From Shewanella violacea DSS12 (GTDB lineage: Bacteria > Pseudomonadota > Gammaproteobacteria > Enterobacterales > Shewanellaceae): 64,000 nucleotides of DNA. Positions within the stretch are counted from its first letter, which is position 1, and each line of letters begins with the position of its first letter. Below, in pieces: positions 15,075-33,255 of the stretch. The translations under genes were made by a program, and so were the position numbers. Below the pieces are notes generated by a model that had not been told where the DNA came from, made no database searches, and saw only the letters and a program-made list of their open reading frames with translations. The stretch lies in the NCBI RefSeq assembly GCF_000091325.1, contig NC_014012.1, forward strand, positions 992,001 to 1,056,000, read 5' to 3'.

Positions 15075-15349
15075 GAATCGTTTGCGTTTGTTGTTTTTTA
15101 TATCCTGTTCTAGTTAAGTAATTTAGTTTAAGTATCTATCAAGTACAGACTTATTAGTTGTGTGTATATTTTATACTTATTGTTCATTTTGTTTTCTGTT
15201 AATGGATTGTGACTTGCTTAGACTCACTCTTGCCCATCTGGTCGCTTAAATGTTGATGGGCAGTAAATGTTAGATGTGAAGGGGCCATGATTTTTGTGGC
15301 CACCATAATTTATATCACCTGCCGAAAGAGCAGACATTTGGAGTATATT

Positions 15350-18019
15350 TTGAATAATAAAAATAAGTTTATCCCTACCATCGCCCTGGCGAGCATCTTT
15401 TTAACCGCTTGTGGATCAGACTCGAGTAACGAGTCCACGGCAAACAGCCAACTCAATTTAACCATAAGCGGACTCCCCGTTAATGCCCTGGCTCAAGTGG
15501 AGGTCACAGGGCCTAATAATTACCGAACCAGCCTAACCGCTACAAGTACCCTTAAGGATCTCGTACCCGGAACCTATGAGGTGAGCGCAGCAGAGGTGAT
15601 AGTCGCAGGCTCACCCTTCAGGACCGCCTCAGTATCTAGCTCATTCTCTCTGGTCGCCGGAGAGAGCGCCGCGAAAACCTTAATTTATGGGGCTCCTCAG
15701 CTCAGTATTGGTGCCATAAGCGGCTTTGGCAGCGTTTATGTCAATGGTGTTAGATATGCAACAGATGACACTGAATTTAGCCATAACGGCGCAGCAGATA
15801 GCTCTGAGTCCCTATTGAGTGTCGGTAAGATAGTCAAGGTTCAAGCCCTAGTTCCAGTAGGGGGGGATGCTATTGCCATAGGGGTGAGCTACTCGGCCGA
15901 TGTGATTGGTGAGATTCAATCAATAGATTTGGCCAAGGGGGTTATTCGGGTCTTAGGCCAAAGCTATTTTATCAATGAGCTTACTCAATTTGAAAATCTT
16001 ACCTTCGACCAGCTAACAGTCGGCCAAGGCATCGAGATCAGTGCCATCAGAGATGAGTCAGGTCAATATATGGCAAGCCATGTGGAGCTAACTGACTCCT
16101 TAGTAAGTTGGCAGATCTTGGGTGTGGTCACTAATCTGAATCTTGATACTAAAGTATTTAACTTAGGTTCCCTTATTGTCGACTACTCCGGGGTTGAGCT
16201 CGATGGTGAGTTTAAGAACGGCTCCCATGTAGAGGTAAGCTCAGCCACAGGTATGGAAGCCGATAGCTTAGTTGCGGACGCTATCGAGATTCAGGAGATG
16301 GAACTCCCTGGCGCGAGATTGGCACTAGAAGGCATTGTCAGTGAGCTCAATGGCAATGAGTTTACTGTCGATGGTCGCCTGTTTAGCCTTAACAGCGATA
16401 CAGAATTTACCCAAGGGAAAAGAGAAGATCTACACAGCGGAGTCGCAGTTAGCCTGTTAGCCGATATTATTGAGGGTGCGAGTCCTGTATTGGAGATCAG
16501 AATCGAGTTGCTTAACGAGATGGAGATCCAAGGGCAAGTCGAGTCACTGAATGCAGAAGGTTTTACGCTTGCTGGCATCGAGTTTCTTGTGGATGAGTTT
16601 ACTCGTTATGAGGATGATTCAGACTTGGACATCAGAAAATTCTCCCTGGCGGATATCACCGTGGGGGATCGACTTGAGATCCAGGCATTCGAGAATGAAG
16701 CAGGCTTGGTCTGTCGTGAAATCGAACGTGAAAATGCCAACGAGGCCGACATAGTAGAGCTAGATGGTGCTGTAGACGCTATCGAGTCGCCGACATTTTC
16801 AATGAAAGGCCTGACAGTACGGACCAGTGCCTTAACACAGTTTGAAGATGCGTCGGGCAATGTCATAGGTCAGGACGAATTTTTTGCGGCTTTAATGGTT
16901 ATGGACCAAGTCGAAGTGGAGGGCACAGTCATTAACGGCGAGCTGGTGGCGCTGGACGTTGAGATGGAGTCAGAAGATGATAATGCGGTTGAACTCTCGG
17001 GCAAGATAGATAGCCTGGATTCGGCTCAGTCATTCACTGTCAATGGTCATAAGGTGATAACCAATGGTAATACTCGTTTTGAAGATGGTATAGAGGCCAA
17101 CCTAAGCTTGGATGTTGTCGTCGAGATTGAAGGGAGTCAGGCTGATGATGGCACCATTTTAGCTGATAAAATTGAGTTCAGTGAACTCGATGACCATGAG
17201 ATTGATCTCCAGGGCGTGATTGCAAGCTTAGGCGAGATGAATTTCGATCTTGGCGGCCTGAGTATCAGTTTCGATCTTGATACTGAATTCGAGTACGGAC
17301 AAGCATCGGATCTGGCTCTGGGACGATACTTGATAGTCGAAGCCCAGTTACAAGAGGATGGCTCACTGCTGGCTCGGGATATCGAATTCGATGATGAGGG
17401 TCAGTTGGAGATTGAAGGCTCGGTTGATGGCTTCAATTCGGTGACAGATTTTGTCGTCAATGGGCTTAAAGTGACCACCACTGCCGCTACTCAATTTGAA
17501 AATGGTACTCAAGATTCCTTGGCTAATGGCAAGCGTATCGAGGTCGAAGGCCTGCTGGAAGGCACTAGTCTGCTTGTGGCTCAGGTAATCGAGTTTCAGG
17601 GGCCACAGGAGCGGGAGCTTGAGGGCAGTATTGAGCAGTTTGTCAGTGCCTCTGAGTTTACCTTAGCCGGCGAAGCCATCATCACAGATAGCTTCACTCA
17701 ATATGATAAGGGGAGAGCGAGTGATCTGGCGGCCGGGGTAAAGGTTAAGATCCAGGGATATCTCAACGAGTCCGGCGTTATTTTGGCCGAGGAGTTGGAG
17801 TTTATCCATAGTCAGCAGCTACAGGTGTCCGGCGCCATAGACAGTTTTGTCTCTACACTGGAGTTTAGTGTCGATGGTCAGGCGGTACTCACGGACGAGA
17901 CGACCGAGTTTACCGGCGATATAAAAATCGCGTTATCAGCGGGTTTGAAGGTGAACGTGGAAGGTTATTTACAGGAAGGCAATATCCTGCTTGCCACTAT
18001 AGTCAGTGCTGTAGAGTAA
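15350..18019 (+). CDS. Lipoprotein of 11 DUF5666 repeats
   Basis: The TTG at 15350 is chosen because TTGGAG lies about 6 bases upstream and it begins a lipoprotein signal (MNNKNKFIPTIALASIFL, lipobox LTAC, C21); product 889 residues. After a short Ig-like segment, 11 repeats of about 62-78 residues run to the end. Each follows the DUF5666 pattern: G.I.S......F.V.G..V.....T.FE.G....L..G..VEVEG.....G.LLA..IE. The protein is strongly acidic. DUF5666 is a small beta-barrel-like domain of unknown function, often in envelope proteins. It should sit on the outer membrane. A terminator follows at 18046 and a Fur-like site lies upstream. Confidence 0.88.
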   Translation: MNNKNKFIPTIALASIFLTACGSDSSNESTANSQLNLTISGLPVNALAQVEVTGPNNYRTSLTATSTLKDLVPGTYEVSAAEVIVAGSPFRTASVSSSFSLVAGESAAKTLIYGAPQLSIGAISGFGSVYVNGVRYATDDTEFSHNGAADSSESLLSVGKIVKVQALVPVGGDAIAIGVSYSADVIGEIQSIDLAKGVIRVLGQSYFINELTQFENLTFDQLTVGQGIEISAIRDESGQYMASHVELTDSLVSWQILGVVTNLNLDTKVFNLGSLIVDYSGVELDGEFKNGSHVEVSSATGMEADSLVADAIEIQEMELPGARLALEGIVSELNGNEFTVDGRLFSLNSDTEFTQGKREDLHSGVAVSLLADIIEGASPVLEIRIELLNEMEIQGQVESLNAEGFTLAGIEFLVDEFTRYEDDSDLDIRKFSLADITVGDRLEIQAFENEAGLVCREIERENANEADIVELDGAVDAIESPTFSMKGLTVRTSALTQFEDASGNVIGQDEFFAALMVMDQVEVEGTVINGELVALDVEMESEDDNAVELSGKIDSLDSAQSFTVNGHKVITNGNTRFEDGIEANLSLDVVVEIEGSQADDGTILADKIEFSELDDHEIDLQGVIASLGEMNFDLGGLSISFDLDTEFEYGQASDLALGRYLIVEAQLQEDGSLLARDIEFDDEGQLEIEGSVDGFNSVTDFVVNGLKVTTTAATQFENGTQDSLANGKRIEVEGLLEGTSLLVAQVIEFQGPQERELEGSIEQFVSASEFTLAGEAIITDSFTQYDKGRASDLAAGVKVKIQGYLNESGVILAEELEFIHSQQLQVSGAIDSFVSTLEFSVDGQAVLTDETTEFTGDIKIALSAGLKVNVEGYLQEGNILLATIVSAVE

Positions 18020-18281: not shown

Positions 18282-20762
18282 TTAATCGAAACGTAATTCA
18301 AGCGTTGTGGCGCCATCGATTCGCATCAGTGTCACTTTCTCGACTCCGACGAGTCCCAGGCTTTTAAAATGCCCGGAGACAGGAGTCGTAGTGCCGTCAT
18401 AAGTTAGCTCGACATTAAATGGTCCGTCGGTATTCTCCACATAAAGATTGCGGGGGATTGGCTGAGAAAACAGGACATGAATAGGTGCTTCACAGCCTAA
18501 ATCAACCAAGTTACGTGTACCCATTTCAGAGATAACCAAGGGATTACTAGCATCTAGCCCTGGACAGTCATCACGCGGTGGTGGCGGTGGTGGCGGTGGA
18601 CCAGCAGGATCCTTCACATCCGGATAAGCGTTAGCCAGTAAGACCGCAAATTGCTCAGGGAACCAACGTCCAGCATGGGGCGCGTTAGCCATAGAGCCTG
18701 TCTTATAAGCCGCATTGTAATGGCTATTGGCTTCAGGATCACACATACCGTCATGCCTTTTAGCCGGGTCGTTAGGATCTGGAGTGAAGTTGGGATCTGA
18801 GATGCCATCAGATTCTCCAGGAGGCTTGACCCAGACGAAGGCGTCAATACCTACATAGGGATCAGCCCAAGGCTTGAAGCCAACGCCACCGGCCTGATTA
18901 CACCAGTTACCACGGTGGAAACGTCTATCGACACGTGATGCATCAACATACACGTCAATATCATCGGCTTGGCTTACCTCTGTAGGACGAGCGGCTCCAC
19001 CCCAACCGTTACGGCTAGTGTCGATCAACATGCCCAAGGATTCAGGAGCGCCCAAGGCTATCATGGCCTCACGCCAATCTTGTACATAAGATTTCTCTTC
19101 GAAGTAATCGTTCCATTCGAAGAAATCTGCAGAACGGATTGGCATACCACCGACCGAAAGTTGTGGATCGGGAAGGTATGGCTCAACCACAGGAGTATAG
19201 TTGGCTGAATTTGAGATAAAGCCATCTAGGTTATCCCAACCGCCATCTGTACTGGTGATCACATCGGCAACGAGATCAATCGCAGTACCGAAGTTGCTCG
19301 ACCAACCTAACCAGCCTGAATGGGCGATATCTAGGTAAGTATAGACATTAGGGATCCCGCCTAACTCGTTTAGGGTATGGCGAATACCATCGCGGTAACC
19401 ATCTGGACCGTCGGCTTCTGCACAATCGGCAATACCAAGGTTAGTCACTAGGTTAGGCAATGAATCAACTTCGATAATGGTTACAATGCGCAGTGATGCG
19501 TATTTAGGATCCGAAATTATATCGACGATAGGACCTATGTACTCTTCCTTGTATCTTTGCATACCATTTTCAGAAATGCGCAATTCACCGTTAGAAGCCA
19601 GTGCTGCACAATCTCGGTTTGGCAGGTCATAGACGACAAACATAAACATACCAGCATTTTGTGCCAATGCCTCGTCTAGGTGGCCTCTTAAGCCAATACC
19701 ATCTGTGATTGCACCAATTCTATCCATCCACACAGCTGTGCTGACGTTAGCGATGGCTTCTCCGCCTGGCTCTGCCGCCGCTTTGGCTGCCCAAACTGAA
19801 TCGACATAGTGAGATACGCCGCTAAATGGGTTTTCGACGTGAAGAATTTCATCACCCACGTGTATGCTCAGCACTGTCGTATCTGACAGTTCACCGTCTG
19901 ATACCGTAAGGTTGACCTGATAATCGCCATTGGCGACGAAGGTGTGCTCAGGTGATGCCAAGCTTGATGTTGTGCCGTCACCAAAGTCCCATTCATAGGT
20001 GAGATCATCATTATCGACATCACTGGATGCGGTAGCATCGAAAGTAGTGGCCAAAGGTGCCTTACCTGAAGGAGTACTGACGGTAGCTGTAGCAACCGGA
20101 GCATGATTTCCCAGTACTTCGATGGCTATGGTTTTTGATGAACTAGAATTGCCATCACTGACAGTGACTGTGGCACTATGGCTGCCAACGCTAGTAAAGC
20201 TGTGAGATACCATATCTCCCGTGGCACTAGTGCCGTCACTGAAGCTCCAAGAGAATGTTAACTCATTATAGTCGTTATCAGCATCTGTAGATTGAGTGGC
20301 ATCTAAGGTCACGATAAGAGGCGCTTCACCTTGAGTTAAATCTGCTGTGGCGACTGCAAGGGGGGCTGAATTTGCAGGGGTACAGATATCACCTTGAAGT
20401 AATGGGATCTCTGCATCTTCACCATTTTTGGTTCCTTGGAAGCCAAATTCAACATTGCCTCCGGCTGGGACATTGTTATTCCAACCACTGCCTGCTGCAC
20501 TGTAAGGATTATTACCCGTTAAGCTGACGTTCCAGCTGCTGCTGATGCGGTTCGCTCCTGCATAATCCCAAGTGAGTTGCCAAGCTTGAATGTCATCAGG
20601 ACCATCGTTAGTTATACTGACTTTTGCAACAAAACCGGTGTTCCATTCGTTATCGATTGAGTATTCGCATACCGCTGCGTAACCCGAGGCCATGTTCAAC
20701 CCCATTAAACCTATTCCGACGGACAAACCGCGCATTGCCTGCGACAGTTTAGTTCTTTTCAT
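18282..20762 (-). CDS. Secreted GH6 cellulase with CBM2 and two PKD domains (second copy in locus)
   Basis: The 826-residue protein begins with a long signal peptide ending ASGYAA. Residues about 30-128 are a CBM2 cellulose-binding module with its three surface Trp (NEWNTGF, SSSWNVS, GSGWNNN). Two PKD domains (about 133-303) precede a GH6 domain (about 310-735). Catalytic landmarks are D384 in YDLPNRDCAA, the EVDSLPNLVTN strand, and D652 in VKPPGESDG. GH6 enzymes are inverting cellobiohydrolases or endoglucanases. After an eight-proline run, an extra C-terminal domain of about 85 residues is of unknown type. A good AAAGGA ribosome site precedes the ATG. It is last in the minus-strand cellulose locus. 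Confidence 0.94.
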   Translation of the reverse strand: MKRTKLSQAMRGLSVGIGLMGLNMASGYAAVCEYSIDNEWNTGFVAKVSITNDGPDDIQAWQLTWDYAGANRISSSWNVSLTGNNPYSAAGSGWNNNVPAGGNVEFGFQGTKNGEDAEIPLLQGDICTPANSAPLAVATADLTQGEAPLIVTLDATQSTDADNDYNELTFSWSFSDGTSATGDMVSHSFTSVGSHSATVTVSDGNSSSSKTIAIEVLGNHAPVATATVSTPSGKAPLATTFDATASSDVDNDDLTYEWDFGDGTTSSLASPEHTFVANGDYQVNLTVSDGELSDTTVLSIHVGDEILHVENPFSGVSHYVDSVWAAKAAAEPGGEAIANVSTAVWMDRIGAITDGIGLRGHLDEALAQNAGMFMFVVYDLPNRDCAALASNGELRISENGMQRYKEEYIGPIVDIISDPKYASLRIVTIIEVDSLPNLVTNLGIADCAEADGPDGYRDGIRHTLNELGGIPNVYTYLDIAHSGWLGWSSNFGTAIDLVADVITSTDGGWDNLDGFISNSANYTPVVEPYLPDPQLSVGGMPIRSADFFEWNDYFEEKSYVQDWREAMIALGAPESLGMLIDTSRNGWGGAARPTEVSQADDIDVYVDASRVDRRFHRGNWCNQAGGVGFKPWADPYVGIDAFVWVKPPGESDGISDPNFTPDPNDPAKRHDGMCDPEANSHYNAAYKTGSMANAPHAGRWFPEQFAVLLANAYPDVKDPAGPPPPPPPPRDDCPGLDASNPLVISEMGTRNLVDLGCEAPIHVLFSQPIPRNLYVENTDGPFNVELTYDGTTTPVSGHFKSLGLVGVEKVTLMRIDGATTLELRFD

Positions 20763-20911: not shown

Positions 20912-21424
20912 TTAATTGTTATTATCACCCCTGACTTTATTATGCTTGTGATATTTCCTGTATGAACTTGGGCTGCTATTAACCATCTTTTTGAAATATT
21001 TATAGAAAGTGGCTTTGCTATTGAATCCTGATTGATACATGATCTCTATAACAGACAGATCATTATTTAAACTCGACTCGAGTAAACTCTTAGCCGCCAT
21101 AATCCTATAGCAGTTAGTAAATTCGTTATAATTTTTTCCTAGATGGTTATTGATCAAACTGGATAAGGTTCTCGGTGAAATATCAAACATAGAGGCAAGT
21201 TTCTCTATGGTTAACTCTGAATCTAAGTACAATTTATCAACTTCCATTAGCTGCTTGAGTTTCTTGATGCGTAATAGGTCAATCTTAGATAATGAGTCTT
21301 GATTATCTTGCTGAACTGGCCTGATTTTATGCGCTAATATATGACTAATAAACAAATTTTTTTCAACTTGTAATGAAGTCATTTCATTCGGTGAGATATA
21401 ATTTAACTTATTAATAAATATCAT
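20912..21424 (-). CDS. Short AraC-type transcription regulator
   Basis: The 170-residue protein is almost entirely an AraC/XylS DNA-binding domain. Residues about 70-160 hold both helix-turn-helix units (LTIEKLASMFDISPRTLSSLIN and LSVIEIMYQSGFNSKATFYKYFKK), with the usual SSPSSYRKY end. There is no sugar-binding cupin or membrane sensor in front, only about 55 residues of linker. The start is well supported by AGGGGGC just upstream, so the short form is not a truncation in this sequence. It lies 63 bases after the TolB-like gene on the same strand, in the middle of the cellulase locus. It is the obvious local regulator candidate, possibly responding to a partner sensor. Confidence 0.85.
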   Translation of the reverse strand: MIFINKLNYISPNEMTSLQVEKNLFISHILAHKIRPVQQDNQDSLSKIDLLRIKKLKQLMEVDKLYLDSELTIEKLASMFDISPRTLSSLINNHLGKNYNEFTNCYRIMAAKSLLESSLNNDLSVIEIMYQSGFNSKATFYKYFKKMVNSSPSSYRKYHKHNKVRGDNNN

Positions 21425-21487: not shown

Positions 21488-22672
21488 CTAGCGCCACAGT
21501 AAACTGGACTGGCGAGCGACACGGTCGAATATTTGCTTGCTGTGGGAGCCATCGAGTGCCATGGTTCTGAGGGACAGATGCCGAGCACCGCCGAGCTCAT
21601 CGGCATAGAGGTAGGCAATATTACGACCATCCGGTGAGAAGACTGGGTTGCGATGTAAATGATCACCTTGAGTGAGCTGCACCGTTGAACCGGTTAATTT
21701 AGACATAAAAATCTGCATACTGCCTAGGTAGGTTTTACGCTGAGTTTGTTCATCATAGTAGTAGCGATAATCTTGCAATCCTGAATAGAGTAAGCTGTGG
21801 TTGTCTTTTGACCATTGAACTGGTGATTGCACACTGATGTTAGCGGGAGAGACTAGTTTGACAACGCCAGTGTCTATGGGGTACAGGGCTAGTTGCCGCA
21901 TTTCACCTCGCTTGGTGGGGTGAAAAATAAAGGCGATTTGACTATCGTCAGTCGACCATACGGGCGTCATGATTTCACTCTGATCTCGGTAGCTATTTAA
22001 GTTGCTTAGGTTATTAACCGTCGAAGAAATATCGTCTTTGTCGGCACTACGCCGAGTCTGTAGTAGCGGCTTTTTCGTCAAACCGTCGAGTTTTAGGCTA
22101 AGGAGTTGGCTGTGATCTCCCTGCTTAATTGCAATCGCCAGTACCTCTTGGGTGTTTGCCCAGCTGTAACCAAAAATATCCTCGGCTCTGAGGACTTCTA
22201 GTTCAGTATTTGACTCAAGGTCCATGATATAAAGCACTTTTTTCTTGTCTATAAAACGGATAAAAGCCAGCTTATGTCCGTCGGGGGAAAATTGCGGGTT
22301 TACATCCTGACTCATGTTATTGGTGAGGGGTGTTATGCGGTTTGATTTGGGATCCAGGTGGTAGATATTAAATACCTCACTGGTTTGATTTAGGTCAACT
22401 TTTACCTCGGCTTGTCTATTAGACATAAACACCAGCTCACCCAGCTTAGAGACGCTAGGTTGCAGATCTCTCCAGACACGGTTTTGAGTGAGTTTAGTGA
22501 GTTTTCCTTGTTGTTCAATAGCATAGATATTAGTCACCGGCCCGCCGACTTTTGCATTAAAGTAGATCGCACTAGACACGGGGAAACTTAGAAGTGAATA
22601 GGCACATGCTAGTGCCGTGAATATCCATTTAGCTTGGGTTTTAGATATTAGTTTTGTTTTTATATGATGCAT
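21488..22672 (-). CDS. TolB-like (PD40) beta-propeller, secreted
   Basis: The 394-residue product starts with a signal peptide (hydrophobic stretch to about residue 34, ending PVSSA). It then shows PD40/TolB-type blades such as QFSPDGHKLAFIRF and VFSPDGRNIAYLY. Six blades are likely. The ATG at 22672 has AGGAG 10 bases upstream. It is not TolB itself: the pal/tol neighbours are absent and the N-terminal TolB domain is missing. Such propellers often bind sugars or proteins. Its position between the cytochrome-CBM2 gene and the AraC regulator suggests a periplasmic sensing or binding role for cellulose breakdown products. That is inference. Confidence 0.82.
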   Translation of the reverse strand: MHHIKTKLISKTQAKWIFTALACAYSLLSFPVSSAIYFNAKVGGPVTNIYAIEQQGKLTKLTQNRVWRDLQPSVSKLGELVFMSNRQAEVKVDLNQTSEVFNIYHLDPKSNRITPLTNNMSQDVNPQFSPDGHKLAFIRFIDKKKVLYIMDLESNTELEVLRAEDIFGYSWANTQEVLAIAIKQGDHSQLLSLKLDGLTKKPLLQTRRSADKDDISSTVNNLSNLNSYRDQSEIMTPVWSTDDSQIAFIFHPTKRGEMRQLALYPIDTGVVKLVSPANISVQSPVQWSKDNHSLLYSGLQDYRYYYDEQTQRKTYLGSMQIFMSKLTGSTVQLTQGDHLHRNPVFSPDGRNIAYLYADELGGARHLSLRTMALDGSHSKQIFDRVARQSSLLWR

Positions 22673-22877: not shown

Positions 22878-25800
22878 TTACTGACTGGTACATTTTTTCC
22901 CGTTTAATTTAAAATGATCTGGGAGAGTGAGTGGTGAGTTAGATTTATTACCTTGAAAACCTATGCCAATATTACCGCCGACGGGAATATTCCCATTCCA
23001 TAAACTGGCATCATTAGTGACCTCTATTATATTTTCTGAACTTGTAAATGTACCATTCCAACCATTGGTGAGCGCTTCGCCATCTCCTAAGGTGAAGGTC
23101 AGTAGGTAGCCATTGATCTCAGCTTCGCCGGTATTGGCTATGAGCAGATCAACCTGAAAGCCAGTGCTCCACTCCTGTGTCGGTGTATAAGTTATGTGGC
23201 AGCCGCCATTGGCCCCGAATTCTATGTTGATTTCAGGGGTTAATGAAGCGGTCAGCCCTTGGTTATAAAAGGCTTTAGCCTGCAGCCTATGGCGACCAAG
23301 CTCCACAGGGGTCCAGCTAGAGTTAAATGGAGTATCTTGGCTGATGGCAACAAGCAAGCCATCGGCGTAATATTCGACCCGAGTGACACCTGTTAAGTTA
23401 GTTTCCAGTTCCAAGGGGATTTCACTGGCTTCGATGACGCTACCTTCGCTAAGTCCGGCTAGTGATAGTGATAACTCACTTACAGGGGCTGGGCCATTGG
23501 TACCATCAACTTGCTTGAGATAAGCCACTAGTTGCTCGAGTTTTTCTGGCGTTAATCCTGCTGTATTTCCATGGGCGTTATCCTTGCCAAATAGGCTGGC
23601 TAAACTCAGGGCCGAGCCATCATGCAGATAGGGAGCTGTGGAGAAGATATCTCTAAGGGTTGGGGTATCTATTCCTGCTAGTTTTCCCGATAAACGTTGA
23701 CCACTGAGAGCGGTTAGGGTGCCCACATCATGGCTAAAGCCTAATGGACTATCGGTAAAGGCCTCTCCCGAGTGACATGAAGCACAATTAGCTTGGTTAA
23801 ATACAATTTCACCGAGTACTGCCTGTGGGGTTAATTCGCCATCGGCGTTGCGGTATGGGCTAGGATTAAAGCGATTAAGTGAGCTAACATAAGCGGAAAG
23901 CGCATCTAAATCCGTCGATATCCCGGCTTTTTTGTCCCCTAATGCCTGATTAACTAAGCCTTGATTAAACAAGCTATCTGGGATAAATCCGCTTCCTGAA
24001 AATGGACCGCGCATATCGTGTTCAAAGTCATGAATTTCATCAAAATTGGCTGACCAATGGACTCTGCCATGGGCCGTACCTGCTCGGCCTTTTAAGGATA
24101 TGGTGTTTCTCAGTCCTTCTCCTCTGTCGGTAAAGTCCCATACCTGGCCGTCTTGTTCACCGTCCATATGACAGTTGGCACATGCCATATAGCCATCACT
24201 ACCCATGCGCTTATCGGCGGCATTGTAAAAAATCTGCTTACCCTTGAGCACTTGTGCAGTCAATGTTTCGCTACTCACGGTATCTATGGTGTCCAGTAAG
24301 CTGATCTTGGTATTGACCTGATCTAAGAGTTGGCTCACGTCGACAATAGAGACAGAGCGATCCATAAAGTTTTTCACATAGAGTCGCTTGCTCTGATGAT
24401 CAAGCAGTAAGGATTGAGGCGCTAATCCAACATCTAAACGGGTGATCTCTTGGCCGCTGTTGGCATTTAAGACTATGATGCGATTGTTGCCTTGCATGGC
24501 AAGGAACAGATAGCTTCCGTATTGGTCATATACTCCTGCAACGGGTAATGCGTGATCGTCAATATCGACTCTCTTGTGCTGGGCTTCTGTGGAGCTGAGC
24601 AGATCCAGTTTGGCCACTAGGCTTCTGGAGCTAGTTTCGAAGGTTAGTGGCATGCCGTCACGACTCAAACCGCGCACGATATTATCTTTTTTACCTACCA
24701 CAGTAGCGCTACGATCGCTTGGGTGGATGGCAATGCTGGCCAGATAATTGGGCACGCCACGGCCACTGGAACTGGTGTCCATGGAGCTGGTATCCAGTGG
24801 AAGCTCTATGACGTTACTGATTGACAGATCTCCTGAATTTAGCTGCCAGACCTCACCTTTTTCGGCATCTGAGATAAACTGAGTCACCAGTAAGCTGGCA
24901 CCATCTCCACTGAGGGCCAGTGCTCTTGGACTCGTGCCGACGGGGTTAGAGGCGAGTATTTGGCGATCTCTGCTGGCGATTTTTATGACATTTCCCGATC
25001 CCATTAATGCGGCATAAACATGCTCTTGCTCGAGATCGCTCACGAGTGCGATTGGCAGGGCACCATATTCAAGCTTTATGGTATCTGTGACGCTATGGGT
25101 TAGTGCGCTAAGGATTGTGATCTGGTTAGCATCACGACAAGCCAGCCAAAACTCATCATTAACTTGAGTAACAGACACGGGATCTTGGCACACTGGAATT
25201 TCAGCCAGCTTAGTTCCCGTGTTGGTGTCAATAATGCTCAGGCTATTATTGTCGGGGTTAACCACGGCCAATAGTTGTCTATCGGAATTGAGCGCCATCT
25301 GGGCTGATTGCCGTGGTAGGTCGCCATAGGCTGACTCTATAACCACAAGCTGTTGCACTCGGGTGACAATATTCTCGCCGGAATCACGAACTTGTAGACT
25401 CACCGAATGGAGCCCTGCTTGAGTAAAAGTGTGAGTGATGCTGTTCGAGCCGCTCCATTGATTGTTACCCTCACCAAAATCCCAGCGATACTGCAGTGGA
25501 TCATTATCTTCATCGATTGCAGTGGCGGTAAAGGTCACGGCTTGCTCTATGATGATCGGATCCTTGCTACCGTAATCAATCTGTTGGATCACCGGAGCCG
25601 GGTCGTCATCAATCAAGCTACCGGTTGAAAATAGGAAGCTATATTCATCGACACCATTACCGGCAATATCTTTTATCCCATTAGCAACCAGTGTGACCTT
25701 GTAGGTCGAATTTTCCTCCAAACGCTGCTTGGGGACAAAGTTGACTGTTTGATAGCTGGTACTAACTACGTCTCCCTTAATGACATGACCACTGCCTACT

Positions 25801-27014
25801 TTACGCAGTACTATGGTGTCAGAGTTTAAGGACCGCTCCTCTAAGATCTCATTAATCACGAATCCAATCACCGAAGTGACGGGCATATTGGTACTGTTAG
25901 CAAAAGGGTGATGAAATCCAATCTCAGGTCCCTTGATATCCGGGCCATCTTGATGGGCATAGAAGAAGGTTTTACCTTTACCGCCATTAGAGCCGCTGAT
26001 AGACAAGATAGGGCCCAGTGGCATCCATTGAAAATCTAAGAAGGTATCGGGCCACTGACCTGGAGCGTCGAACACCTGCTCAACTTCCAGGGTCTCCATA
26101 TTGAGTTTCACCCCATAATCATCACTGCCGGCAAAGCCATATTTATCTTGGAAATACATGTAGCGGCCCGGTGATTTTGCGAAAGGGACGCCACCTGCAT
26201 ATTTGAGATCGCTTGGATCTGAGAAGTCGATCATCACCATGTTGTTTGATTCTTCATTGGCGTTATTGCCATTGAGATACACCACATAGTTACGCCATAC
26301 GTGATAAGTGGTTGTGTATTGATTGAAACTGCCGACTATGGAGTCGAGTAATTTGATGTTCAGTGGATCGCCTATATCGAAGACAGATAGACCGTTGCCT
26401 GTAACGAACATCAGGTTGCCAATCCTGAAACGTAAACTGCTGTTCACTCCTGCATTATCGAGGGAGAAGGTCGAGGTTATTGCACCGGCATCTAGATTGG
26501 GATCGTCAAAACGTAAATCATGAACGTTGCCGCCGTTGGTGCCTGTGGGGAAGGTTTCTAAGGTTTGCCATTTCTCTAACTGGCCTGATTTTAAGATAGG
26601 CACTGGCACATTTTCATCACTCCATGGCACCAGATTAAGCATGTCTGACATATCGAGGAAATGGTAAGGCGAGCCTTGTAGCTCCGGAACCGTATATTCA
26701 CGCCAAAAAAGGTCGGTGTTGAGCTTATACCAGCGATGTCCATTGTCGCCATAGCTATGCTCATCCACCATAACCGGAGTTTCCGGAGCTGAGATATCCC
26801 AGAGGCTAGTGCTGCCTTGGCCCATAATATAGTAATAACCTCGGTGAAAGGTCACCATGCGTCCACCATAAGGTATATGGCTCAAGTATTGTCCTTGAGT
26901 CCAGCCAATGTCTGGTACGCCGGGTCCGTTACTGCCATCGTAATCGGCTTGGGCTTGTGACATGCTGCCAGATAAAAGAATTATGGCTGCGATGCGAGTG
27001 ATTCTAGTCTTCAT
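22878..27014 (-). CDS. CBM2-tethered beta-propeller / di-haem cytochrome c protein
   Basis: The 1378-residue secreted protein has a signal peptide ending QAQA and a strong AGGAG site. In order it shows: an LVIVD-like propeller (about 25-370; LWDISAPETPVMV); an Ig-like Big_5-type domain (about 370-465); a PKD domain (about 475-560); a YVTN-type propeller (about 565-910); a di-haem peroxidase/MauG-like domain with CXXCH at 945-949 and 1077-1081 and the APYLHDGS motif; an Ig-like segment (about 1175-1270); and a C-terminal CBM2 with three surface Trp (QEWSTGF, TNGWNGT, SLWNGN). The haem pair implies electron transfer or peroxidase-like chemistry at the cellulose surface. No direct function is known to me. 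It lies between GH5 and TolB-like genes on the same strand. Confidence 0.88.
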   Translation of the reverse strand: MKTRITRIAAIILLSGSMSQAQADYDGSNGPGVPDIGWTQGQYLSHIPYGGRMVTFHRGYYYIMGQGSTSLWDISAPETPVMVDEHSYGDNGHRWYKLNTDLFWREYTVPELQGSPYHFLDMSDMLNLVPWSDENVPVPILKSGQLEKWQTLETFPTGTNGGNVHDLRFDDPNLDAGAITSTFSLDNAGVNSSLRFRIGNLMFVTGNGLSVFDIGDPLNIKLLDSIVGSFNQYTTTYHVWRNYVVYLNGNNANEESNNMVMIDFSDPSDLKYAGGVPFAKSPGRYMYFQDKYGFAGSDDYGVKLNMETLEVEQVFDAPGQWPDTFLDFQWMPLGPILSISGSNGGKGKTFFYAHQDGPDIKGPEIGFHHPFANSTNMPVTSVIGFVINEILEERSLNSDTIVLRKVGSGHVIKGDVVSTSYQTVNFVPKQRLEENSTYKVTLVANGIKDIAGNGVDEYSFLFSTGSLIDDDPAPVIQQIDYGSKDPIIIEQAVTFTATAIDEDNDPLQYRWDFGEGNNQWSGSNSITHTFTQAGLHSVSLQVRDSGENIVTRVQQLVVIESAYGDLPRQSAQMALNSDRQLLAVVNPDNNSLSIIDTNTGTKLAEIPVCQDPVSVTQVNDEFWLACRDANQITILSALTHSVTDTIKLEYGALPIALVSDLEQEHVYAALMGSGNVIKIASRDRQILASNPVGTSPRALALSGDGASLLVTQFISDAEKGEVWQLNSGDLSISNVIELPLDTSSMDTSSSGRGVPNYLASIAIHPSDRSATVVGKKDNIVRGLSRDGMPLTFETSSRSLVAKLDLLSSTEAQHKRVDIDDHALPVAGVYDQYGSYLFLAMQGNNRIIVLNANSGQEITRLDVGLAPQSLLLDHQSKRLYVKNFMDRSVSIVDVSQLLDQVNTKISLLDTIDTVSSETLTAQVLKGKQIFYNAADKRMGSDGYMACANCHMDGEQDGQVWDFTDRGEGLRNTISLKGRAGTAHGRVHWSANFDEIHDFEHDMRGPFSGSGFIPDSLFNQGLVNQALGDKKAGISTDLDALSAYVSSLNRFNPSPYRNADGELTPQAVLGEIVFNQANCASCHSGEAFTDSPLGFSHDVGTLTALSGQRLSGKLAGIDTPTLRDIFSTAPYLHDGSALSLASLFGKDNAHGNTAGLTPEKLEQLVAYLKQVDGTNGPAPVSELSLSLAGLSEGSVIEASEIPLELETNLTGVTRVEYYADGLLVAISQDTPFNSSWTPVELGRHRLQAKAFYNQGLTASLTPEINIEFGANGGCHITYTPTQEWSTGFQVDLLIANTGEAEINGYLLTFTLGDGEALTNGWNGTFTSSENIIEVTNDASLWNGNIPVGGNIGIGFQGNKSNSPLTLPDHFKLNGKKCTSQ

Positions 27015-27198: not shown

Positions 27199-29319
27199 CT
27201 ATTTGATCACGCATTCAGGCAGAGCGAAGCTAGCTGGATATGAGCCTTGGAAGCCAATTGAGTGAGTTTGTCCGGGCGCGATGGATTGTGTGTGATTAGC
27301 GCCTGAGATTTGTATTGTGTGATTGTCTATCTGGGTGTAGTTGGCACTCCAACCATTGCCAAGCACAACTTGGTTGGCAAAGATCAAGTCTGCCGACCAA
27401 TTTGAAACCGTTTCTGACCCCGAGTTAGCGATCAGAATTCCATCTAACACAAATCCACCAGGCCAGATATTTTGTCTGCCTAAGCTACAGCTGACCGTTG
27501 GAGATATGACCGAGATGTCTACCGAGCTGGCGAGAGTCAGTTCTTGTTGGTTACTATCTATGGCAGTGACAGTAACACTGTGTGTGCCAAGTTCAGTTCC
27601 GACTGCAAAAATGGCATCTGATCCATTTAAAATAATCTGTGTCTCGCCAGCAAAGTGCGCTTTAAATCCTGCAGCATTGGTGAAATTAGCCGATACCATC
27701 AGGTTTTTTCCTTGCTCGAAGGATTCACCATTGGAGGGGGAGGTAATTTCAATGCTTGCCGGTAGGACGTCGAGAGCATTGAGGCTAATAGTATCGCTTA
27801 CCTCGGTGAGCTCGCCATTATCTAGTCCGATTAGCTGCACCACAAAGCTACTGGGTGTTGTGGGAGCTTGGACTGTGATGCTACCCGTTTCACTTGTCGC
27901 CACTAGCTGTGCGTCGATATAGGCATTGACGCTATCAAGTTTATTCTTGTCGTAATTAATCACAACTTCGGACTTGGTCAGTACATTGGCATTAGTGGCT
28001 GGAGATGAGATCGACAGTGATGGAGAAAGCGATGCATAATACTCTGCGACGTTAGTACCATGCCCTTCACCACCTAAGGTAACTTGATGATCTAGACCGA
28101 TAAACTGGCCCTTATCATCCTTCCAGAGTGTAGGTTCAAATAGGGTGTATTTTTCTTCATCCCAGGTGACCCAGTCGTTCTTTAACAGTCCCCCCGTGTC
28201 ACCTGAATTTGGATTGATACACCAGAATGTATGATGTAGCTCATGCTCTATGATTAAATCTCTAATCGCCAGCATCCACTTCTCGTTATCGCCACCATCC
28301 ATGAATCCGCCCCACTCACCGATAAGCAGTGGCGCGATGTTTTCTTCATGGATAAACATCCAATTATCTTTCCATACATCTTGATATAGGGTGTCCTTGT
28401 TGAATCCTTCATAAAACCAATCTTGTAGGAAGACTAAGGGGCCATAATCGTGGGGGGAGTACATGAGTTGGTCTTGGTTAGCGCCAAGATTGATAGGATG
28501 ATCTCTCACTCCACGAAGATTGCCTCCCCACCAGTTATTGTGATAATCATTCTTGTCTTGTGAGGTCCAGTTCTCGCCATCAATCGGGTAAGACTGTATG
28601 CCTTCGCACATGACAATTAGATTCGGGTTGATGGCCAGAATACGGTTCGATGCCGTTTCGCAGGCATATTTCCAGTTGTTCTCATCGGTTGAATCGTCCC
28701 ACTTGGCAAAATTGGTGTCGCCATAAGGGGTGCCGTGAGGCTCATTTTCGATATCCATGGCGAGGATAGTGTCATCATCTTGATAGCGGGCAGTGATCCA
28801 CTCCCAGCTCGAATAAAATATCTCGGATGTTATCTCACCCTTGTACCACATAGTTTCCACATGGCCTGAGTTATCCGCCTTGGCACTGTGGGCATCTAAT
28901 AAGATTTTAATACCATATTTTTTAGCGGTAGCAAGCAGGATATCGAATATTTGCAGATCTGTTTTACCTACAAGGTCTGGGTTTGAAGCGGTATTAACGT
29001 TAGGTAGCGTTGTTTTTCCTTGGCTCCACTCATACATGAGTTCTGTAGAGATAGGCAGACGCAGGATATTGATACCGCGTTCAGAGATAGTCTTTAAGGT
29101 ATCGCCTAAATTAACTGACCAGAGCCCATGTAGCACTCTTTCGCTGGCATTTAGACCAAACCAGTTTGCCCCGGTTAACCAAACTTGTTGGCCTTGCATG
29201 TCGACAACTTTATTGCCTTCAACATGTAGCCAGTCATCATTATTTTGCGGGCTAGCAAGCAAGTGACTGCTCATTATTAAGCTTGTAGCTGCAACGACCA
29301 TTTTAATTTTAAAATTCAT
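27199..29319 (-). CDS. GH5 endoglucanase with Ig-like domains and CBM2
   Basis: The 706-residue secreted protein has a signal peptide ending HLLA. Residues about 28-400 form a GH5 catalytic barrel with the acid/base E193 in DIENEPHG and the nucleophile E335 in GEWGG, plus the SPHDYGP substrate-binding segment. The subfamily looks closest to GH5_1, which is tentative. Two Ig-like segments (about 430-520 and 525-610) and a C-terminal CBM2 (about 612-706) follow. The third surface Trp of that CBM2 is not seen. A TTAGGA site precedes the ATG. GH5 makes internal cuts that feed the two GH6 enzymes encoded on either side. Confidence 0.93.
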   Translation of the reverse strand: MNFKIKMVVAATSLIMSSHLLASPQNNDDWLHVEGNKVVDMQGQQVWLTGANWFGLNASERVLHGLWSVNLGDTLKTISERGINILRLPISTELMYEWSQGKTTLPNVNTASNPDLVGKTDLQIFDILLATAKKYGIKILLDAHSAKADNSGHVETMWYKGEITSEIFYSSWEWITARYQDDDTILAMDIENEPHGTPYGDTNFAKWDDSTDENNWKYACETASNRILAINPNLIVMCEGIQSYPIDGENWTSQDKNDYHNNWWGGNLRGVRDHPINLGANQDQLMYSPHDYGPLVFLQDWFYEGFNKDTLYQDVWKDNWMFIHEENIAPLLIGEWGGFMDGGDNEKWMLAIRDLIIEHELHHTFWCINPNSGDTGGLLKNDWVTWDEEKYTLFEPTLWKDDKGQFIGLDHQVTLGGEGHGTNVAEYYASLSPSLSISSPATNANVLTKSEVVINYDKNKLDSVNAYIDAQLVATSETGSITVQAPTTPSSFVVQLIGLDNGELTEVSDTISLNALDVLPASIEITSPSNGESFEQGKNLMVSANFTNAAGFKAHFAGETQIILNGSDAIFAVGTELGTHSVTVTAIDSNQQELTLASSVDISVISPTVSCSLGRQNIWPGGFVLDGILIANSGSETVSNWSADLIFANQVVLGNGWSANYTQIDNHTIQISGANHTQSIAPGQTHSIGFQGSYPASFALPECVIK

Positions 29320-29477: not shown

Positions 29478-31688
29478 CTAAAGCTCTGGATGAGCATTTT
29501 CTACCAGCATTTTAAATTGCTCATGGAACCAGGCACCAGCAGATGGTGCTCCATTCATGGCACCGGTTAACACGCCGCCGGAGGTGGTAAATTCTGGGCT
29601 GCACATGGGATCGAAGCTTTTTCCTTCCTCGTCGGGAGTGGTTTGAGATGCATCGCTGGTACCATCAGACTCCCCTGGAGGCTTTATCCACACATAAGCC
29701 TGAATCACACTAGTGCTACCAAATGGGAGAGTTTCAGGTCTAGCCCCTATTCCTGCTCCGCTTGAGTTGCACCAATTACCTCGATGGGCACGGCGGTCTA
29801 GCTTACTATCCATGACATATTGATCTTCATTGCTGGCATCTTCGTTAGGGGAGGTTGGTCTATCGGATGCGCCCCAACCATTACGTGAGGTGTCGATCAG
29901 CATGGCTAAGCTTGTTGGAAACCCTTTGGCGACAAATTCTGCGTGTAGGGATTGAGCGAAATCTTTTTCATCAAATACCGGATTCCACTCGTAGTAACTG
30001 CTGGATTTAATTCCCATGAAGTCACCATCAAAATCAAACTCTGGGTCGGGTAAAAATATCTCTTCTGCCGGGGTGTAGTTCGCTACATTTGAGATAAATC
30101 CATCGAGTACGGACATGTCGCCATCTGCAACACCTGCAACTACACTGGTATACAGGTCGATTGCTCCGCGCATATTGGTATCCCAACCTAACCAACCCGA
30201 GTGAGCTATATCTAAATAGCTATAGACATTATCGAGCCGAGAAAAGCGCGATAACGCATATTGCACGCCCTCAACATAAGTACCATTACTGTTGACGATT
30301 CCACATTTCAACACTCGGGTATTAGTCACTAGGTTGGGCAGTGAATCAGGCTCAATCACTGCGATGATACGTAGGTCTTCGAAGCGGGGAGCGGCGGCGA
30401 TATTAGCGATAGTGTCAATATAGTCGTGTTTATAAATTTCAAGCCCGCCTTCGGCCGCGTTTAAGGTGCCATTTGAGGCTAGGGCGGCGCAATCTCTGTC
30501 AGGTAAGTTATAAACAACAATTGAGACTGTAATAGGTACGCCGACACGTTTCTGAGCCAAAGCATTGTCGAAATGCTGCTCTAAACTTAGACGCCCACTG
30601 TTGATCTCTCCGCCATAGATAGCATCAATTCTGTCTAACCAAACTGCAGTCGCTTGTTGTTTAACTTGAGCCATCTTGGCTTGTAAATGAGGAGCGGACT
30701 CTAATGCCATAGATGCATCGACAAACTTGGCATAATCAGGGTTTATGTAGCTGGTGGTTCCGAGGAAGGGGTTGGCAACGTGTTGACCTGTGGCGCCATC
30801 ATAGGTCACTAGAAGTTCAGTTCTGATTTGGGTATTGCTGCTACCATCGGAAACATTCAAGGTTACGGTATAAAGACCATGAGCTGCATATTGGTGGTAA
30901 GTATTAATACCCGATTGAGATGTGCCATCACCAAAGGACCATAAATAACTGAGTGCATCACCTTCTGGATCACTTGAGTTACTGGCATTAAAGGAGAGGG
31001 CTAATCCGTCATGAATGGTGTTGAAACTAGCAAGAGGAGCTTGGTTAGGCACTAGGCTTTTAATATTTAATTCAATGCTATGTTCGTCAATGACGAGTCC
31101 ATCACTGACAGTTAAGGTGACGATGTAACTACCAAGGCTTGAGAATGAATGCTCTGTGTTAACACCTTCACCTAAGGTTTCATCCCCAAAATCCCAGCTG
31201 TAGGTCAATTCGTCACCATCGGCATCACGGGTCGCAGAGGCATCGAAGCTGATATCCAAACCCGATTCTATAATAGTGAAACTAGTCATTGGCGCGCTGT
31301 TATTAGCTTCTCTAGTGCAAATTTCTCCAGATATTTTGGGCGTTGAAGCAGCTTTGTTGGGGATGCCTTTCTCACCTTGAATGCCAAATGTAATCGTCTC
31401 TCCGGGTTGGATTAGATTATTCCACACTAGGTTACTGGCCAAATAGGGGCTATTACCGGAAAAGGTTGAGTTCCATGCTGATGAAACTGTGGAGCCATCT
31501 AGGTATTGCCAGCTTACTTGCCAGCCATCAATGAGAGTTTCGCCGGTGTTTTTAAGCTGTATTGCACCAACAAAACCTGTTTCCCACTCATTTTCAATAG
31601 AATAATCACACTTAACAGCTGCATTAGCTTGGAGCGTAGCCAGTAACATGCTTGTGAGCGTCACTCCCTTTATTAAGCCAGATCTCAT
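29478..31688 (-). CDS. Secreted GH6 cellulase with CBM2 and two PKD domains (first copy in locus)
   Basis: The 736-residue protein starts at the ATG at 31688, preceded by AAGGAT; the in-frame TTG at 31703 overlaps that ribosome site and is rejected. A signal peptide ends QANA. Residues about 27-125 are a CBM2 with all three Trp (NEWETGF, SSAWNST, LVWNNL). Two PKD domains (about 130-300) are followed by a GH6 domain (about 305-735) with D399 in YNLPDRDCAA, the IEPDSLPNLVTN strand and D675 in IKPPGESDG. It shares its layout with the GH6 gene at 18282 but lacks that protein's proline run and C-terminal domain. It is first in the locus, and a LacI-type palindrome lies about 90 bases upstream. Confidence 0.94.
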   Translation of the reverse strand: MRSGLIKGVTLTSMLLATLQANAAVKCDYSIENEWETGFVGAIQLKNTGETLIDGWQVSWQYLDGSTVSSAWNSTFSGNSPYLASNLVWNNLIQPGETITFGIQGEKGIPNKAASTPKISGEICTREANNSAPMTSFTIIESGLDISFDASATRDADGDELTYSWDFGDETLGEGVNTEHSFSSLGSYIVTLTVSDGLVIDEHSIELNIKSLVPNQAPLASFNTIHDGLALSFNASNSSDPEGDALSYLWSFGDGTSQSGINTYHQYAAHGLYTVTLNVSDGSSNTQIRTELLVTYDGATGQHVANPFLGTTSYINPDYAKFVDASMALESAPHLQAKMAQVKQQATAVWLDRIDAIYGGEINSGRLSLEQHFDNALAQKRVGVPITVSIVVYNLPDRDCAALASNGTLNAAEGGLEIYKHDYIDTIANIAAAPRFEDLRIIAVIEPDSLPNLVTNTRVLKCGIVNSNGTYVEGVQYALSRFSRLDNVYSYLDIAHSGWLGWDTNMRGAIDLYTSVVAGVADGDMSVLDGFISNVANYTPAEEIFLPDPEFDFDGDFMGIKSSSYYEWNPVFDEKDFAQSLHAEFVAKGFPTSLAMLIDTSRNGWGASDRPTSPNEDASNEDQYVMDSKLDRRAHRGNWCNSSGAGIGARPETLPFGSTSVIQAYVWIKPPGESDGTSDASQTTPDEEGKSFDPMCSPEFTTSGGVLTGAMNGAPSAGAWFHEQFKMLVENAHPEL

Positions 31689-31775
31689 ATCAATATCCTT
31701 CAATAAGTTATTATCATCATGTGAAAAATAATTACAGCCTTTAACGTCACGGATAGTTAATTACCACACGTTATT

Positions 31776-32821: not shown

Positions 32822-32876
32822 GAGTGGCGGCACATCCTGGACTCGAACTGTTATGGCATATGATGACGATTATGGC
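32822..32876 (-). pseudogene. Decayed tRNA 3' half
   Basis: Read on the minus strand this piece ends like a tRNA: a T-loop segment CAGTTCGAGTCC, then a GCCGCCA-like 3' end. Upstream of that is CATAATCGTCA, identical to the anticodon region of the intact tRNA at 33179-33255. The spacing between these parts is about 7 bases too long and the acceptor stem no longer pairs. It looks like a partial duplicate of the nearby tRNA gene. Confidence 0.5.
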
Positions 32877-32902
32877 TAGCTTCTAAATTACCGACACAAT
32901 TA

Positions 32903-33001
32903 CCACACCTAGCCATCCCTGGGGTGTGGCATAAGTGTTCCAGACACAAAGTCCACAGTTTGCCATCCTTGGCCTGTGGGCATAAGTGTTCCAGACACAA
33001 A
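32903..33001. repeat. Two tandem copies of a 48-49-bp hairpin-forming unit
   Basis: Copies at 32903-32950 and 32953-33001 share GCCATCC and CATAAGTGTTCCAGACACAA. In each copy the outer arms pair (CCACACC/GGTGTGG in the first, CCACAG/CTGTGG in the second), so the differences keep the pairing. A smaller GTGT/ACAC hairpin follows in each. Confidence 0.75.
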
Positions 33002-33138
33002 AAAGCCCACACTATGTGCAGGCTTCTTTGTTTAAATATCGTGTCTTCTATCAGCCCCCGACCAGAGTTGAACTTTATGTTCAAATAATGCCGCTGGTTT
33101 TAGGAGGGGGAGGGAACTTGCATTAAACACTAGACATG

Positions 33139-33178: not shown

Positions 33179-33255
33179 TGGTGGCCCCTCACAGACTCGA
33201 ACTGTGGACCTGACGATTATGAGTCGTATGCTCTAACCAACTGAGCTAAGGGGCC
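33179..33255 (-). tRNA. ileX: tRNA, anticodon CAU; probably tRNA-Ile2 (lysidine type)
   Basis: The 77-base gene folds fully. It has a seven-pair acceptor stem (GGCCCCT/AGGGGCC), a D-arm around AGCTCAGTTGGTTAGAGC, an anticodon arm ACGACTCATAATCGT, a T-arm CACAG-TTCGAGT-CTGTG, and encoded CCA. The anticodon is CAU. The acceptor stem and anticodon stem resemble E. coli ileX rather than elongator tRNA-Met, and in E. coli ileX also lies next to rpoD. I therefore read it as the minor isoleucine tRNA whose C34 is changed to lysidine by TilS to decode AUA. Automated tools often label such genes tRNA-Met. The gene's 3' end faces the accessory region. Confidence 0.92.

Follow-up and report, generated by a model that had tools for sequence, protein, structure and literature searches.

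We analysed a 64,000-nucleotide stretch of the Shewanella violacea DSS12 genome (contig NC_014012.1, positions 992,001 to 1,056,000; below, the window), the genome being a single contig of 4,962,103 bp, and focused on a minus-strand gene for a large multidomain protein, here called the study protein. An earlier note, made from the sequence alone, had described a secreted protein of 1378 residues; the open reading frame (ORF) at 22878-27014 matches this exactly, and a signal peptide was recognised by eye. The features of the gene are listed in window coordinates, in the order of the protein.

22878-27014, minus strand: ORF of the study protein, ATG start, 1378 aa (ORF list and translation)
26943..27014, minus strand: Sec-type signal peptide, residues 1-24, without a lipobox Cys (translation read by eye; the first Cys of the protein is residue 609)
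25941..26942, minus strand: LVIVD-like β-propeller, residues 25-358 (homology to L003, L004 and L080, which match Pfam LVIVD; AlphaFold2 predicted local distance difference test (pLDDT) 73.9; generic propeller matches)
25623..25937, minus strand: Big_5 Ig-like domain, residues 360-464 (Pfam PF13205, E 4.3e-14)
25371..25574, minus strand: PKD domain, residues 481-548 (Pfam PF18911, E 3.3e-12)
24315..25319, minus strand: YVTN β-propeller, residues 566-900 (NCBIfam TIGR02276 above cut-off, and fold; nearest solved fold, hydrazine synthase β subunit)
23490..24314, minus strand: di-haem c domain, residues 901-1175 (Pfam CCP_MauG and Cytochrom_C; PDB match 5c2v_C; 35-row alignment A1; ligand count)
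23277..23447, minus strand: Big_7 Ig-like domain, residues 1190-1246 (Pfam PF17957, E 1.5e-5, 26.0 bits against a cut-off of 24.1)
22881..23213, minus strand: CBM2, residues 1268-1378, with W1282/W1319/W1339 (Pfam PF00553 at residues 1272-1375, E 1e-21; alignment to 1exg)

A Pfam profile scan bore out the domain order named in the earlier note, including its Ig/PKD domains, with matches above cut-off for Big_5, PKD, CCP_MauG, Cytochrom_C (residues 1067-1169), Big_7 and CBM_2. The YVTN-like propeller was confirmed by NCBIfam model TIGR02276 and by the predicted fold. The LVIVD-like propeller is confirmed indirectly. A Pfam scan at E 0.01 did not list LVIVD for the study protein, but the protein is homologous to L003, with 514 columns aligned and E-values of 1e-29 one way and 2e-31 the other, and L003 itself matches Pfam LVIVD (L numbers denote loci, G numbers genomes). 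The CBM2 profile scored 77.6 bits against a cut-off of 24, and W1282, W1319 and W1339 align with tryptophans of 1exg that we take to be surface residues, in keeping with the three surface tryptophans described before. The domain appears to be of the cellulose type, and the study protein is predicted to be anchored to cellulose. The joining of a redox domain to a cellulose-type CBM2 beside GH5 and GH6 cellulases, as the earlier note had it, is upheld by the sequence.

The two CXXCH motifs start at residues 945 (C945/C948/H949, haem 1) and 1077 (C1077/C1080/H1081, haem 2), where haem sites had been placed in a peroxidase/MauG-like domain, and the CCP_MauG profile (PF03150; 28.8 bits against a cut-off of 25.6) agrees with this superfamily assignment. 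The domain also carries HWSANFDEIHDFE from residue 986 and PYLHDG from residue 1128. In alignment A1, which holds 35 of 38 rows (left out were L035, the second core of L096, and L092_15836, an artefactual ORF in which two CXXCH motifs occur by chance), 30 columns including both CXXCH sites are invariant; near haem 1 these comprise H986, W987, N990, E993 and D996. W987 aligns with a Trp of 6e1c, and the haem-1 loop lines up with the same structure, which we take to be MbnH, a di-haem enzyme; the residue presumably lies between the two haems. The sixth ligand of haem 2 is Met in bacterial cytochrome c peroxidase (CCP) and Tyr in MauG. In the study protein the ligand count gives His1148 as the candidate, with His and no Met at that place, so that the strict bacterial CCP pattern is absent. 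Haem 2 is probably a bis-His electron-transfer haem with H1148 as its sixth ligand, and the distal side of haem 1 appears to be open. The protein resembles the MauG/MbnH/bacterial di-haem CCP superfamily in its two CXXCH c-haem domains, its PYxHDG motif and the Trp matching that of 6e1c, but differs in the likely His ligand of haem 2 and in being, by prediction, extracellular and polysaccharide-targeted.

The first-ranked solved matches of the two core halves were both chains of 5c2v, chain B for the propeller (tied with 1l0q_A) and chain C for the di-haem domain, and the propeller has the β-propeller fold of the hydrazine synthase β subunit. The core of YVTN propeller and di-haem domain resembles hydrazine synthase β plus γ (PDB 5c2v B, C) fused into one chain, with a seven-bladed propeller followed by a di-haem domain that has an apparently open haem and an apparent bis-His haem. 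Haem γ-I of hydrazine synthase is bound via three cysteines (PMC12607021), whereas the four CXXCH cysteines are the only ones common to at least 5 of the 18 author-selected cores of alignment A3, leaving no conserved third Cys. The study protein further differs in being a single chain and in scoring far under the NCBIfam cut-offs (73.5 bits against 1250 for the β-γ fusion model and 73.0 against 625 for the γ model). No hydrazine synthase α subunit was found among the window neighbours, beyond which no search was made. The MauG (TIGR03791, 35.9 bits against 443.85) and MbnH (TIGR04039, 43.8 against 362.85) models of NCBIfam also fell short, and membership in hydrazine synthase, MauG or MbnH was rejected because these scores are too low.

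The core recurs in other bacteria, where its N-terminal slot is filled in one of two ways. Among the 39 rows of a core tree, 17 (the study protein and 16 others) bear LVIVD+Big_5 and 22 bear a galactose-oxidase-type copper radical oxidase. Each of the 17 LVIVD-labelled rows is hit by LVIVD-type queries, and no galactose-oxidase query hits any of them; L048, cut by a contig end, shows the Big_5 end alone. In this unrooted tree a single branch with 100/100 support parts the two kinds, and the split is identical in three core trees. The study protein groups with the Cellvibrionaceae/f168 side at modest support (90/92 in the 39-row tree, 98/95 in a 35-row tree), and genome G960 carries one protein of each kind. 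The trees leave out L004 (several frames) and L036, L037, L038, L102 and L104 (partial or split cores). L092_15836 was part of the 38-row set and the first tree and was removed from the 35-row and 39-row trees; L040, L089, L095, L099, L102 and L103 were added late, four of the five beyond L040 entering the 39-row tree.

The oxidase assignment is supported by the N-terminal domain of L081, whose best PDB match is galactose oxidase (E 2.5e-128). Five copper/radical residues (C228, Y272, Y495, H496 and H581, in what we take to be Fusarium numbering) are kept in 25/25 galactose-oxidase-type domains examined, 23 of them fused (among these L104, whose record has a split core) and the other two free-standing; W290 is kept in 14 of 24. 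Oxidase-core fusions with an intact site occur at L030, L031, L033, L040, L052, L081-L094, L096, L100, L101 and L104. Three consecutive galactose-oxidase-type genes, one fused to the core and two free-standing, lie at L091:2118-11918, and a 2554-residue ORF at L096:5798-13462 holds two propeller and di-haem cores (haem motifs at 1229, 1360, 2179 and 2310).

In 14 of 37 proteins (36 di-haem proteins and L040) a domain of sugar-binding type comes after the core: CBM2 in the study protein, CBM35 in L004, a ricin-type lectin in L050, L051 and L097, PA14 in L081, L085 (with jacalin), L086, L087, L093 and L096, and F5/8 type C in L040, L084 and L088. PA14 is also carried by L089, the sole locus scanned for tails among the late-added L089, L095, L099, L102 and L103. 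No CBM2 was detected in relatives by phmmer over their ORFs, late-added loci included, nor by Pfam in L040. The study protein thus shares the propeller and di-haem core, and often the sugar-binding-type tail, with its galactose oxidase-type AA5 relatives, but bears LVIVD+Big_5 where they bear the oxidase.

Copper radical oxidases produce H2O2, lose their radical and can regain activity via peroxidase systems (PMC10928124). The Streptomyces GlxA system comprises a copper radical oxidase, the haem peroxidase DtpA and Sco (PMC4736821), the same kinds of parts as in some fused relatives; unlike these, they are separate proteins with a DyP-type mono-haem peroxidase, and no sequence relationship is claimed. 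In certain Burkholderia, sco genes adjoin galactose-oxidase genes, and PMC11267884 cites an AA5-CE3 fusion from Burkholderia. Among our loci, 5/21 of the oxidase type (20 and L040) have a confirmed SCO1/SenC gene as direct neighbour or at most two genes away, an overlapping ORF at L088, grouped with SCO by BLAST alone, being a possible sixth; the SCO group occurred at 0/16 other loci (LVIVD-type or partial). The neighbour comparison omits L040, L089, L095, L099, L102 and L103. Two of the oxidase fusions have a further di-haem protein of CCP_MauG type, encoded separately, as neighbour (L030:13755-14987 and L052:13012-14463). In the literature searched we found no paper on a galactose oxidase/di-haem fusion, and the words heme and cytochrome are absent from the main text of PMC11267884 and PMC6519835. 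The earlier statement that no described protein has exactly this domain order holds for the literature searched, but the core itself recurs elsewhere.

Our leading reading, tentative and at just under an even chance, is that the study protein is a secreted, cellulose-targeted, peroxide-reactive di-haem enzyme of the MauG/bacterial CCP superfamily. H2O2 (or O2) would react at the open side of haem 1, near H986, W987, N990, E993 and D996, while the probably bis-His haem 2 would handle electron transfer. Because the N-terminal slot swaps between LVIVD+Big_5 and a copper radical oxidase, the core may act as the peroxide-reactive partner of the slot occupant. In the relatives this partner would be a copper radical oxidase, of an H2O2-making class in which some members are activated or matured by a haem peroxidase that is a protein of its own; in the study protein it would be the LVIVD+Big_5 module. 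Next to the cellulases, the likely job would then be the consumption or use of peroxide on the cellulose surface rather than service to a monooxygenase. The oxidase fusions, too, suggest that the chemistry on polysaccharides involves peroxide and not a monooxygenase partnership.

Several points weigh against this reading. Since the study protein lacks an oxidase domain, the partner argument extends to it via the shared core alone, and the peroxide activity of that core is itself a prediction from sequence and domain swapping. NCBIfam scores for MauG, MbnH and hydrazine synthase lie far under cut-off. The AlphaFold2 models contain no haem and are of low confidence at residues 954-996 and 1084-1117 (model 389-431 and 519-552), around the proposed active site, where the study protein also has H995 in place of the Gln of most A1 rows. 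As for the oxidases, GlxA maturation without DtpA is rescued by added copper; two further sources describe an AA5 oxidase with a lag that peroxidase treatment did not shorten (PMC6519835) and another that is active without peroxidase (PMC10928124). The SCO contrast of 5/21 to 0/16 is small, with too few cases to carry weight.

The earlier note had proposed that the protein could supply electrons to, or balance peroxide for, a lytic polysaccharide monooxygenase acting on cellulose, similar to Cbp2D/Cbp2E, and a CBM2 with c-haem beside cellulases does recall Cbp2D, whose X183 haem domain can start reduction of the monooxygenase (PMC8981238 and PMC12542752). A genome search for AA10 monooxygenases, which the note had suggested as a check, found one gene (LPMO_10 and GbpA_2), about 1.06 Mb away. 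It adjoins a GH18 and CBM5/12 chitinase and, because of this context, is read as a chitin gene; all four CBM2 domains detected in the genome lie within the cellulase cluster of the study gene, and none in this GbpA-like protein. On these grounds the partnership was dropped as the leading idea, and we give it very little credence. The galactose-oxidase E-set (PF09118) was not found in this genome by a search that was positive in 5/5 carrier genomes and negative in 14 named control genomes. Because the AA10 is GbpA-like and no such E-set was found, the study protein would either work alone, work with an unrecognised oxidase or serve as a peroxide sink. If it works alone, LVIVD+Big_5 could be an uncharacterised carbohydrate oxidase or dehydrogenase, the whole protein oxidising cellulose or cello-oligosaccharides with electrons leaving via the di-haem unit; we think this unlikely. 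The module sits where the sister proteins have their galactose oxidase module, each being built of a propeller and then an Ig-like domain, and glyoxal oxidase ranks 5 among its Foldseek matches, but with a template modelling (TM) score of 0.34. Its fold matches are mostly generic propellers, and one His alone is invariant in alignment A2 (13 of 19 LVIVD modules, author-selected), with no evident metal-ligand set. A copper radical site inside the module was rejected since it has no conserved ligand set and mostly generic folds, and the study protein, without any Kelch or galactose-oxidase Pfam match, falls outside AA5.

A MauG/MbnH-like modifier, whose high-valent di-haem chemistry would oxidise a side chain of a partner protein or of its own N-terminal module, seems improbable to us. 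The weak MbnH and MauG model matches and the alignment of W987 and the haem-1 loop with 6e1c favour it, as do two groups of small proteins that recur beside relatives (L084:11969-12406, L086:11248-11970 and L094:5809-6411; L032:12762-13334, L034:13565-14110 and L035:13178-13723), both without a Pfam family above cut-off where tested; however, no such small gene adjoins the study protein in the window, and the model scores are far under cut-off. Still less probable is an extracellular electron relay between cellulose-bound chemistry and outer-membrane respiratory cytochromes. The putative bis-His haem 2 would suit electron transfer and the host genus is Shewanella, but none of the nine window proteins scanned is an outer-membrane conduit (a genome-wide search was not made), and relatives occur in other bacterial families and one other phylum. 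Propellers, Ig domains and CBM2 could also serve adhesion alone in a structural or binding protein whose haem sites have lost their redox work; the invariance of both CXXCH sites, among 30 columns in 35 rows, speaks against this, and we consider it as poor a candidate as the monooxygenase partnership.

The study gene lies among the following same-strand genes.

18282..20762, minus strand: CBM2, two PKD and GH6, 826 aa (Pfam)
20912..21424, minus strand: short AraC-type helix-turn-helix protein, 170 aa (Pfam PF12833)
21488..22672, minus strand: TolB/PD40-like propeller protein, 394 aa (Pfam PF07676 and PF00930; NCBIfam TIGR02800 under cut-off)
27199..29319, minus strand: GH5, Big_7 and CBM2, 706 aa (Pfam)
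29478..31703, minus strand: CBM2, two PKD and GH6, 741 aa (Pfam)

Gaps of 63-205 bp separate the six genes. The earlier note had called this an operon; since promoter-like sites (38, against 32.2 in shuffled sequences, standard deviation 6.4) and terminator-like sites (15, against 13.1, standard deviation 4.1) do not clearly exceed chance, we describe a cluster of same-strand genes rather than a demonstrated operon. The AraC-type protein inside it consists, with 170 residues, essentially of the DNA-binding part alone, and a plus-strand gene for a 910-residue protein with ten DUF5666 stretches adjoins the cluster at 15287-18019.

A tRNA-Met (33179-33255) lies between rpoD and the cellulase cluster. 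DNA similarity to seven relatives of the same genus spans rpoD and the tRNA and stops at or within about 60 bp of the latter, except that two relatives have short matches at 32840-33036 and one has a matching stretch that begins at 33017. Among the seven, L137 reaches its contig end about 1 kb beyond the tRNA. Because similarity ends near tRNA-Met, lateral gain of the cluster fits, and loss elsewhere is also possible. About 100 bp, at roughly 32901-33010, are similar to a repeated stretch near G000:C1:4905857-4906708 and to places in other genomes of the genus.

Queried with the whole protein at E 1e-30, 2/99 genomes matched (its own and G075, of another family), with no match in the 59 other genomes of the genus among them (up to 6 candidate places scored per genome). 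The core query (residues 566-1172, E 1e-40) matched 5/369 genomes of the class and 3/398 of the phylum (own genome included in both), as well as 5/21 genomes of family f168, 21/200 of f133 and 1/4 of f77, a census from sampled genomes that gives a lower bound. In the whole-protein, class, phylum and f133 searches at most 3 or 6 candidate places were scored for many genomes, so that counts and absences there are not exhaustive. A species-genome scan with the whole protein returned three loci, in a Cellvibrionaceae metagenome-assembled genome (MAG), a Verrucomicrobia MAG and Photobacterium sp. JCM 19050; whether through error or decay, the public record of the Photobacterium relative (L004:9794-14959) has its gene broken over several reading frames. 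At E 1e-20, a plasmid collection of 72,556 records yielded two hits. One is a Comamonadaceae plasmid (L040); the other, weaker, is a gene on an Anoxybacillus plasmid (NZ_CP015439.1, 231167-232924) that shares 28.5% identity with residues 569-1138 and may be a distant relative. A plasmid DNA search with the gene itself at distant sensitivity gave no match. The core is thus not unique to this genome: scattered genomes of this class, a Verrucomicrobia MAG and a Comamonadaceae plasmid also carry it, and it is often fused to a copper radical oxidase.

CBM2-linked redox proteins have recently been tied to growth on insoluble cellulose in Cellvibrio japonicus, where Cbp2D and Cbp2E join CBM2 to c-haem redox domains; the authors of that work propose that these proteins act on cellulose directly (PMC12542752). 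Unlike the study protein, they consist of X158/X183/X132 domains with single CXXCH motifs, and the words propeller and peroxidase are absent from the main text of PMC12542752. The study protein gave no YceI-type (X158-like) Pfam match, and no model named X183 turned up in the libraries used. The comparison stays useful as an analogy. The oxidase/di-haem fusions suggest a built-in remedy for radical loss, which in the laboratory can be reversed by added peroxidase (PMC10928124), and a hydrazine synthase β-γ-like architecture appears in proteins bearing polysaccharide-binding domains. A bolder and rather unlikely proposal is a new class of extracellular oxidases in which the hydrazine-synthase-like propeller and di-haem unit would be the covalently attached peroxidase partner, its client being an unrecognised LVIVD+Big_5 oxidase here and a copper radical enzyme in the larger set of members. 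The finding matters for redox chemistry on cellulose in bacteria without a cellulose-active monooxygenase; if the bolder proposal were true, this bacterium would attack cellulose oxidatively without a cellulose monooxygenase.

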